Below are positions 25,521 through 29,070 of a stretch of 64,000 nt of DNA, one piece after another (the stretch's first letter is position 1; each line of letters starts with the position of its first letter). This DNA comes from Methanocaldococcus villosus KIN24-T80. Its GTDB lineage: Archaea; AGJL01; Methanococci; Methanococcales; Methanocaldococcaceae. The notes below the pieces were generated by a model. It was not told the DNA's origin. It ran no database searches and saw nothing but the letters and a program-made list of their open reading frames with translations. A program made the position numbers and the translations under genes. The stretch covers positions 124,001-188,000 of the forward strand of contig NZ_AQUK01000001.1 in NCBI RefSeq assembly GCF_000371805.1. Reading direction: 5' to 3'.

Positions 25521-26399
25521 CTATTCACCTACAACATATTTATATATCTCATCAGGATCTGCTTTTATTTTATACTTTTTAAAATACCTCACTATATTAT
25601 TTATATCTCTTTTTAAATAAAATTCTGCATCTGGATGACCTTTTGTAATTGCCTGTGGCCAGTCAATAATAACAAAATCTAAGTTCTCATCTAATAAAAT
25701 GTTAAACTCTGAAAGATCTCCATGAATATAGCCAATTTTATAAGCCTTTTTAATTTCTTCAATAATTTTGTTAAACAATTCTTCTATCTCTTCCTTACTC
25801 ATTAACTTTTCTAAATCCAAAACCTTTAACTCCTCTCCAGTAATTTTACCCATAATTATAGCATGCCTATTCTGGGCTATTGGTTCTGGAACTTTTACTG
25901 TTGGAAAGAGTTCATTTAATATCTCAAACTCTCTTTCAGCAGTAAGTCTTGACATATAAAGCCAGCTGATATGATGCTTATTTGAAACAAATTCTCTATA
26001 CCTCTTACCTCTTGTAAAACATGTTCTGCCATGTTTATGAAACTTTAAAACAGCTTCCCTATCATCTGATAATAGAACATTATAAACATCCCCCTCTTTT
26101 CCAACACCTAATTTATTTCCTATAGCTTTTAATATCCCTTTTTTATATAGTGCATCTATAGCTAATGCATCATAACCTCCAAATGACACAGCATAACCAT
26201 AGATAGATCTAACTACAAATTCAAATTTATTAAGTCTTTTTAACCTATATAAAACATCTTTTTCTGGCATTTTTGCTTTTTTTACAATTTCATCAATTGG
26301 CACCCACTCATGATGTCTCATAGAGATCTCTATAATTCTTAATATCTTTAAATCTTCATCAGTAGCTTGTTTTAAATAATTTAATAATTTTTTTATTAT
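25521..26399 (-). CDS. rio2: Rio2 serine/threonine kinase, apparently starting at ATA
   Basis: Rio2 is an atypical kinase/ATPase that acts in maturation of the small ribosomal subunit. A winged-helix domain leads into the kinase domain with GVGKEGDVYNVL, HGDLSEFNILL and IIDWPQA. The first ATG in frame (26321) would remove the first helices of the winged helix. The frame stays open upstream for 26 codons with sensible residues (IIKKLLNYLKQATDEDLK and so on). It begins at ATA (26399), four bases after AGGTGA, but contains no ATG, GTG or TTG. Length from ATA is 292 residues. The GTG inside the ribosome binding site is in another frame and meets a stop at once. Confidence 0.85.
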   Translation of the reverse strand: MIKKLLNYLKQATDEDLKILRIIEISMRHHEWVPIDEIVKKAKMPEKDVLYRLKRLNKFEFVVRSIYGYAVSFGGYDALAIDALYKKGILKAIGNKLGVGKEGDVYNVLLSDDREAVLKFHKHGRTCFTRGKRYREFVSNKHHISWLYMSRLTAEREFEILNELFPTVKVPEPIAQNRHAIIMGKITGEELKVLDLEKLMSKEEIEELFNKIIEEIKKAYKIGYIHGDLSEFNILLDENLDFVIIDWPQAITKGHPDAEFYLKRDINNIVRYFKKYKIKADPDEIYKYVVGE

Positions 26400-26407
26400 G
26401 TTCTCAC

Positions 26408-27808
26408 CTATATTTCCTTTAATAAGCTTAAAAATTTCTTAGTTTTCTCCTTCTTAACTTTTCCAAATTTTTCTAACTTTTTAATATCTATTTTATCTTT
26501 TAAAATTTCTTTTATTGGCTCAATTAATGCTATCTTTTTTAGCAAATCTTCAATCTCTTCTTTTTTAAATTTATATTTCTCAACCATGTCCCAATCATAG
26601 AAGAGATATAGAAGAACCCCTCCAATATTTTTTAAACCAATATTAAACTTAGGTAATAACTCTTCTAATTTAAACTTTGTATCTAACAAATCAGCTTTTT
26701 TCTTATCCATCCAAAAGAGATAACCTTTATTTGGTGATACCATAATTGATGGGAAAAGAAAACTTCTTGCCCTTTCATCTGGAGTTTTATATAGATAAAA
26801 TTTAAAAACATCTTCTGAAAATTCCCTAAAAATTATCTCTTTAGCTACCTCTTTAGATACTTTATTTCTTATTTCAATAGCTCTTTTTAATGGAATAATA
26901 AGCTCTTCATCTTCTATTAATCCCTCATTTTCTAAAATTCTTTTTAATTCAAGCTCTTTAAGTTTCTTTTCTTCCAACTGTCTTATGTCTAAAATTCCTC
27001 CACACACTTCTTCCTTTTCATCTTTAAATTTATTCAATATCATATAATATTTCTCTAAATAATTTCTTTCCTCTTTAGATAATAGTTTCTTTAATCTCTT
27101 CTCAATTTCTCTCTCAACTTCAGTTTTATAAGCTTTTATATATCCAATAGCTAAAACTCTTCTAACATATTGATCATCTATAATTTTATTTTTAGAGTAA
27201 TTTCTTTTTATTGATGTAATTATAGCATTTCCATACTTTTCTTTTATATATTTCTCATAATTCTTATCTTCTACTCTAACTCTCTTAAACTCTCTTTTCC
27301 CATTTTTGAAAATTATAAGTGATACTGTATATGATGTTAAAACCCCCTTACCCTTAGGTTCTAACATATCTAAGAATTCTTTATATATTGAAATTAAATA
27401 TGGAGGTAATTCAAAAAGATGTTCCTTATAAGCCCCATCTAAAGGTAAATTTGGTGGTAGTCTTTTATTACCAATCTCATCTACAAGATGAGCTAAAGCT
27501 ATTTTATGGGCAGTTAAAGCATGTTTTACTCTTTCTAATACTCCTTTTTTTTCTCCAGCTATTCTTCTAAGATAAGAGCTATATGTTGCCAGTTCCTGTA
27601 AACTCTCACTATCAACTAACTTTACTTTTCCAACATTTTTATATGGATTGTCAAACTCTAAAAACTCCATTTTTGATTTTAATTCCTGCAAAATTTTTAT
27701 ATTATCCTTTAACTTTTTTATAATATCATCTAAGTTATTTTTTTCAAAATCTATTTTAATATTATCTAAAAATTCATTAGCCTCTTTTATTAAGTTGCTT
27801 GTTTCCAA
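26408..27808 (-). CDS. archaeal protein of unknown function, probably DUF530
   Basis: This 466-residue, Lys/Glu-rich protein resembles the methanogen family DUF530, though I am not certain of that name. It has an N-terminal helical region, a central conserved stretch (ATYSSYLRRIAGEKKGVLER, then KRLPPNLPLDGAYKEHLF), a CGGILDIRQ site, and a mixed C-terminal region with RARSFLFPSIMVSP. No catalytic motif is evident. The start appears to be TTG at 27808, which follows GTGGTG and overlaps the cca gene by 19 bases. Its TAG stop overlaps the ribosome binding site of rio2. Its position between cca and rio2 would suit an RNA-related role. Confidence 0.65.
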   Translation of the reverse strand: METSNLIKEANEFLDNIKIDFEKNNLDDIIKKLKDNIKILQELKSKMEFLEFDNPYKNVGKVKLVDSESLQELATYSSYLRRIAGEKKGVLERVKHALTAHKIALAHLVDEIGNKRLPPNLPLDGAYKEHLFELPPYLISIYKEFLDMLEPKGKGVLTSYTVSLIIFKNGKREFKRVRVEDKNYEKYIKEKYGNAIITSIKRNYSKNKIIDDQYVRRVLAIGYIKAYKTEVEREIEKRLKKLLSKEERNYLEKYYMILNKFKDEKEEVCGGILDIRQLEEKKLKELELKRILENEGLIEDEELIIPLKRAIEIRNKVSKEVAKEIIFREFSEDVFKFYLYKTPDERARSFLFPSIMVSPNKGYLFWMDKKKADLLDTKFKLEELLPKFNIGLKNIGGVLLYLFYDWDMVEKYKFKKEEIEDLLKKIALIEPIKEILKDKIDIKKLEKFGKVKKEKTKKFLSLLKEI

Positions 27809-29070
27809 AGAATAACACCACTTTTAATATCAATATGTTTTGGTTTTGAAATATTTTTTATTTTTCCTTCAATGATATCCTTAAACAGCTCTAATATGTG
27901 GCAGTATTTTCTTTCAGTAAATGCATATAATTTACAACCTTTAATAAATACTTTATCATACTTCTTTATAAACTTCTCCACCCTCTCCTTTTCAAACACT
28001 TCAGGGCCATCTCTCAACTTAATTTTAGGTAATTGATAAACTAAAAACTCCCACTCTATATATGCATAATCACTGTCAGTATAACATTTACAGTTTAAAA
28101 TTTTGAACTCATTTTGTTCTATTAATTTATTTAAGCTCTTTTGAAATTTCTCTAACTGAGGATATATGATATCATCAACTTCTGTCTTAGGAAATTTCAA
28201 AGTTAAAATAAATCCTTTATCTCTATTTTCTAACTTTTCTTCTAATTTTTTATAATAATCATTAAAAAACTCTTCATTCATATTTTTTAAAAACTCTCTT
28301 GCAAAAAAGATAAATTTACAATAATTTTCTCTACTTAAAGGAGCTGCAACATTTCTATTTAAATCTACAGGATCATAAACTATCAAAGGCTCATCAAATT
28401 CCCTAAATTTTGGATTTTTATATAGCTCAAATATATCATTTAAAATAATCTTCTTTCTCTCACCCCAATCCTTTGCATCATTTAAAAGATTTAAAAAACT
28501 TTTATAATGTAAAATTAACAATTCACACAGGTATCCAGAAAAACCTTTTGTTTTTACATCTGAACCATACAAATTTAAAGATTTCAAAAATGCTTTTAAT
28601 AATCTTACTTCATCACATAACTTCTCATCCAATCTTTCAATTAAAAATTTATGATGCAAGGGAGTCCTATCAACAGCAGAAATTATTTTTTCTCCAAAAT
28701 TTATTTTATAACATGGAACTATATCAACCTTATATTTTCCAACAATTCCTTGAATATATGGGTGTGAAGCATAGTTTATTTGACATTTTCCATTTAACCT
28801 CTTTATAACTTCTTTTCCTATATCTAAAGCTATAACTTCCAACTCATCTATAGAAACTGATTTGTCAAATAATATAAATATATCTATATCATGGTCTCCT
28901 TTTAAATGAGTATTTCTTGCAGATGATCCTAACCAAAGAGCTTCTAAAATATTATAACCCTTCTCATTTGCTACATCATAGATATTTTTTATAACATTTT
29001 CAGCAAGATTACTAATTTCTTTTATTTCTTCTTCTGTAGGTCTAATTCTTTTTAAAATCTCTTCTAACAT
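27790..29070 (-). CDS. cca: CCA-adding enzyme (archaeal class I tRNA nucleotidyltransferase)
   Basis: This enzyme adds or repairs the CCA end of tRNAs, and is needed here since the tRNA in this window does not encode CCA. The 426 residues have the class I signature [21 protein letters not shown], giving the GS motif and two catalytic Asp residues, followed by the third Asp in [10 protein letters not shown] helical neck and tail domains follow, typical of archaeal enzymes. The ATG lies seven bases inside the end of the shikimate kinase gene, with GGGG as ribosome binding site. The 3' end overlaps the DUF530-like gene. Confidence 0.96.

Follow-up and report, generated by a model that had tools for sequence, protein, structure and literature searches.

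The rio2 gene of Methanocaldococcus villosus KIN24-T80 probably starts at an AUA codon, and AUA, AUC or AUU (AUH) stands at this position in most genomes of the order Methanococcales. The lack of a standard start codon, the Shine-Dalgarno (SD) spacing, codon conservation, coding constraint and the order-wide distribution make it highly probable that AUH initiation of rio2 is real and maintained by selection. The first-pass annotation of this locus had proposed that AUA is a genuine initiator, that an ATG had recently mutated to ATA or that the sequence is in error; only the first of these survives comparison across the order. Archaeal initiation has been described with AUG, GUG and UUG (review PMC7531240), and our search of open-licence texts turned up no account of archaeal rio2 starting at AUH. 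Coordinates refer to the window, a 64,000-nucleotide stretch of the M. villosus genome, unless a contig is named.

The rio2 start region

The rio2 frame runs from stop to stop across 25521-26438, with a TAA stop codon just before 26438 (Table 1). The first-pass annotation had described the ATG at 26321 as the first in-frame ATG, with 26 open codons upstream of it that contain no ATG, GTG or TTG. These observations hold, and the absence of standard start codons extends back to the preceding stop. ATA 26399 lies 26 codons 5' of this ATG, in a region that reads ...AAATATAGGTGAGAAC ATA ATA AAA AAA TTA TTA AAT... in the 5' to 3' direction. As originally noted, four bases (GAAC) separate ATA 26399 from AGGTGA (26409-26404), which is a proper SD for rio2 because the 16S rRNA of this genome ends in GGAUCACCUCC. 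The GTG contained within the SD is in another frame and soon meets a stop (GTG AGA ACA TAA), also as described.

Table 1. Features of the rio2 start region, in window coordinates
Feature	Coordinates	Strand	Remarks
rio2 coding sequence	25521..26399	minus	292 codons plus stop, counted from ATA 26399; supported by Pfam and human RIO2 numbering
Proposed initiator codon ATA	26397..26399	minus	SD gap of 7 nt, the genome mode; AUA/AUC/AUU in 31/36 Methanococcales genomes
Second ATA, alternative initiator one codon on	26394..26396	minus	Spacing of 10, unlikely; MAFFT places AUH of other genera here
Shine-Dalgarno AGGTGA	26404..26409	minus	Complement of 16S 3' end GGAUCACCUCC; SD at same site in all genera
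N-terminal codons (26) lost with an ATG start	26322..26399	minus	Two predicted winged-helix helices (AlphaFold); purifying selection
Internal Met27, first in-frame ATG, probably not the start	26319..26321	minus	Without preceding SD; three Methanococcus-type genomes have another codon here
DUF530 gene upstream of rio2	26408..27823	minus	TAG stop overlaps rio2 SD here; coupling distance not kept in relatives

The first-pass annotation had also judged the spacing of ATA 26399 to resemble that of ordinary starts. We compared it with 262 starts of the genome, all conserved in another Methanocaldococcus genome, by measuring the distance from AGG to the start codon. This distance was 7 nt in 102 of these, 8 in 63, 9 in 43, 10 in 12 and 11 in one. 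ATA 26399 lies at exactly the modal distance of 7, and the next codon, ATA 26396, lies at 10. Start codon usage among 345 comparable conserved starts was AUG in 286 (83%), UUG in 46 and GUG in 13.

We looked for other features that might explain an AUA start. ARAGORN identified only tRNA-Met (CAU) and tRNA-Ile (GAU) among the relevant tRNAs – the AUA-reading tRNA-Ile is not resolved by this program – and one of the CAU tRNAs is presumably the initiator. A special initiator tRNA that reads AUA was rejected, as the ARAGORN list contains no UAU anticodon. AUH would thus rely on its first two bases for pairing with the initiator. No RNA structure was predicted over the rio2 start and no conserved regulatory fold was found there. 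The stop codon of the upstream DUF530 gene lies 8 nt before ATA 26399 and overlaps the SD, which is not the case in most relatives; upstream distances in relatives range from overlap to hundreds of bases, which argues against translational coupling as a general cause of the AUH start. The 14-base palindrome that the first-pass annotation reported (ATAGAGATCTCTAT, 26320-26333) does occur, but relatives do not share it and it is thus probably due to chance.

AUH start codons across the Methanococcales

Rio2 is present in all 36 Methanococcales genomes examined, which span five genera (genus names of relatives were assigned from sequence and gene content). The codon 7 to 9 nt from the SD is AUA in 19 genomes, AUC in 11 and AUU in one; of the other five genomes, four have GUG and one is ambiguous, and AUG stands at the site in none. 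A check of congeners for ATG or GTG, proposed in the first-pass annotation, instead found ATA at SD+7 or +8 in 14/14 genomes of the window's genus. In sister genera, ATA is found in G024, G028, G027, G030 and G015, ATC in G016, G031, G033, G035 and all seven Methanococcus-type genomes, and ATT in G020. Mapping start codons onto a Rio2 tree requires ~8 changes of state, none of them to AUG. From these patterns we conclude that the AUH start is ancient in Methanococcales, being ancestral or near-ancestral.

Consistent with AUH serving as the initiator, 25 of the 31 AUH genomes have no in-frame ATG, GTG or TTG in the interval from the preceding stop to AUH. In-frame stop codons adjoin the site in many species, as in TAA AAA ATC (L035), TAA ATT ATC (L033, L036) and TAA GGT GAG AGC ATA (L012). 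Where the stop directly abuts AUH, an upstream standard start is impossible, and this counters the idea that AUH is no more than a conserved isoleucine codon inside the gene. In two Methanocaldococcus genomes (G003, G011) the rio2 SD is overlapped by an in-frame ATG, and the SD is weak in four Methanococcus-type genomes (GTG/GTGA only).

GTG is the start codon in G017, G029, G032 and G034, and in G014 the ATA at +7 is preceded, two codons earlier, by a GTG. Five species of one subclade (L017, L018, L019, L021, L037) carry an in-frame GTG, four of them without AUH at the expected spacing – implying that rio2 can dispense with an AUH start. This subclade provides a natural comparison set for rio2 regulation.

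Codons upstream of the internal ATG encode part of Rio2

We found coding-type evolution in the 25 codons 5' of the internal ATG, but not in the codons before AUH. Pairwise pN/pS was compared between codons 2 to ~12 and the six codons before the start, short stretches that give rough values. In Methanocaldococcus, pN/pS was 0.30 inside the proposed gene and 0.77 before it. Two groups within a second genus gave 0.34 and 0.07 inside and 1.05 and 1.11 before the start, and two Methanococcus-type groups, with few sites, gave 0.17 and 0.69 inside and 0.31 and 0.88 before. The contrast between coding and upstream sequence is clear in the larger groups.

Membership in the Rio2 family of atypical kinases/ATPases is well supported. 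The window protein scores 70 bits against PF09202 (cut-off 27) and 185 bits against PF01163 (cut-off 22), with Rio2_N spanning residues 12-87 and RIO1 residues 104-281. The catalytic HGDLSxxN and DxPQ motifs are invariant (H226, D228, L229, S230, N233, D246, P248, Q249). Counting from ATA 26399, residues 9-275 align to residues 9-275 of human RIO2, whose own start codon thus falls at the same position. The best fold matches of an AlphaFold model are RIO2 structures; its kinase lobe is poor (pTM 0.49), and helices 2-11 and 14-26 lie in a block with pLDDT of 78-95. A start at ATG 26321 would remove both of these helices, as the first-pass annotation had anticipated for the winged-helix domain.

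Rio2 genes from outgroups have a standard start (ATG/GTG/TTG) at the aligned place in all 59 readable cases, including Methanopyrus-like (ATG GTG GAG AGG GTG), Thermococcus-like (ATG GTA AGC AAA) and Thermoproteota-like (GTG ATT AAG AGC) sequences. We infer that the N-terminus of the Methanococcales protein lies at the AUH codon.

A two-genome survey identifies hflX as a second candidate

To assess how rare such starts are, we compared contig 1 of the window's genome (G000) with 1.2 of the 1.33 Mb of a congener (G010), pairing open frames reciprocally and searching both genomes for conserved residues that precede the first ATG/GTG/TTG. The survey covered ORFs of at least 60 codons and non-standard starts without a standard codon within ~5 codons downstream. 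Twelve cases were flagged among ~994 gene-like pairs, and rio2 and hflX were left after screening. The flags set aside were three selenoproteins read past UGA (HdrA, FwdB-type and SelD), two frameshift genes, one tRNA overlap, one antisense shadow of valS and three ORFs in which an ordinary ATG follows within a few codons.

The hflX gene, which like rio2 encodes a ribosome-associated protein, lies 5 kb before the window (contig 1, 118961 onward; L078:18961) and seems to start at ATA. Its start region reads GGAGGGGATAAA ATA AGA GCA, with 26 codons free of standard starts, and that of G010 reads GAGGTGATCAGCTT ATT AAA GCA, with 12 such codons. Other congeners mostly have AUU at SD+7, with exceptions – in several, an in-frame ATG overlaps the SD, in another an ATG lies near it, and the sister genus has GTG. 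We regard hflX as a probable second case of an AUH start, weaker than rio2.

Two further genes on contig 1 appear to involve changes of frame. A flaC/arlC-like flagellar accessory gene (~1078000) switches frame at a run of nine As in both genomes, from MNIKD...KKK in one frame to KKKEEVKTEE in another, likely reflecting programmed frameshifting or slippage. A putative VWA/Mg-chelatase-like gene (716345-717275) appears to begin ATGRGCTAAAAAAAAAC in both genomes, as if frameshifted; Mg chelatase frameshifting has been suggested in Methanocaldococcus (PMC8211752).

Possible roles of the AUH start

Several precedents bear on what an AUH start might do. In archaea, aIF1 destabilises complexes formed on non-AUG mRNA (PMC6237735). 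In bacteria, IF3 represses infC (ATT/ATC start) and sigR (GTC start) (PMC5472188). In yeast, UUG initiation rises relative to AUG when immature 40S subunits take part in translation (PMC6934326). By analogy, an AUH codon on the gene for a 30S maturation factor may establish a negative feedback that responds to immature or low-stringency 30S subunits.

Under such a model, the ordinary initiator tRNA (CAU) would read AUA 26399 with a third-position mismatch, placed by the good SD. Mature 30S subunits together with aIF1 would normally reject AUH, keeping Rio2 synthesis low. When 30S maturation lags, less stringent immature subunits would translate and AUH initiation would rise, yielding more Rio2 – the ATPase that matures 30S subunits – in an infC-like negative feedback. 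Selection against AUG probably preserves the AUH start, and it may be weak or stringency-sensitive initiation that is selected. We favour this mechanism; its feedback step, which draws on work in yeast and bacteria, is a tentative proposal. It is also conceivable, if somewhat speculative, that rio2 and, in Methanocaldococcus, hflX form a sensor of start-codon stringency in Methanococcales that makes assembly and rescue factors when 30S fidelity is low. Such a sensor, if real, would be an independently evolved archaeal counterpart of IF3 autoregulation.

A simpler explanation, to which we give close to an even chance, is that AUH initiation does occur but serves solely to hold a low-copy assembly factor at a low, constant level, with no feedback. 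Constant low expression accounts equally for the absence of AUG, and the four species that changed to GUG likewise adopted a weaker start. However, the genome also uses the weak starts UUG (46/345) and GUG (13/345), yet AUH has been kept in five genera, and the sole other candidate, hflX, is ribosome-associated as well. Sequence alone does not distinguish constant low expression from feedback. Methanococcus maripaludis, whose genus carries the AUC version of the rio2 start, has genetics.

Among known systems, bacterial infC (encoding IF3; AUU/AUC) resembles rio2 in that a gene of the initiation and ribosome apparatus has a conserved start with a third-base mismatch. As in infC, the non-standard start of rio2 has been long maintained – AUH across five genera and never AUG, at SD spacing in 31 of 36 genomes, 25 of these without an upstream standard codon. 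Unlike infC, rio2 is archaeal, start selection there is based on aIF1, and Rio2 is an ATPase of 30S maturation, not the factor that discriminates between start codons; infC is autoregulated, whereas comparable control of rio2 is suggested by analogy. Streptomyces sigR (PMC5472188) shares with rio2 a genus-wide non-standard start, a strong ribosome binding site and likely misannotation by gene finders, but it has a first-and-third-base mismatch (GUC), encodes a stress sigma factor and is demonstrably acted on by bacterial IF3. In the yeast Rio1/Nob1/Pno1 checkpoint (PMC6934326), a RIO kinase governs release of immature small subunits and immature subunits loosen start choice, though no non-AUG start in the RIO genes is involved.

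The presence of AUH starts across an order, on a universal gene of ribosome maturation, would mean that a third-base mismatch is put to productive use by archaeal ribosomes. It would also suggest that start-codon fidelity can serve as a regulatory input in archaea, one that could tie Rio2 output to ribosome accuracy. Gene finders probably truncate Rio2 in Methanococcales genomes.

Alternative start sites

We also considered other positions at which rio2 translation could begin. The true initiator could be the neighbouring AUH codon (ATA 26396 in the window), as in the MAFFT alignment the AUH codons of other genera fall on the second isoleucine codon of Methanocaldococcus. We consider this improbable, as spacings of 10-11 nt are rare (12 and 1 of 262), and the start would be AUH regardless.

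Translation from the internal ATG 26321, with the upstream frame open by chance, is very unlikely. This is the first standard in-frame start, and automatic annotation would probably pick it. However, no SD precedes it, the upstream codons are under purifying selection and encode two confidently modelled winged-helix helices in a protein matched from residue 9 of human RIO2, and three genomes (G021, G025, G026) have no ATG at the equivalent position.

Initiation at an upstream out-of-frame ATG or GTG followed by a frameshift, or readthrough of a stop, is less probable still: a few species (L008, L014, L025, L028) have an ATG that overlaps the SD or is close to it, but the upstream codon is not conserved, and in several species it is missing or directly followed by a stop (GTG TAA in L035 and L036). 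Finally, a sequencing error or recent mutation in this strain is ruled out by sequence comparison – ATA is one base away from ATG, but it is found throughout the genus, and the other four genera mostly have AUA, AUC or AUU.
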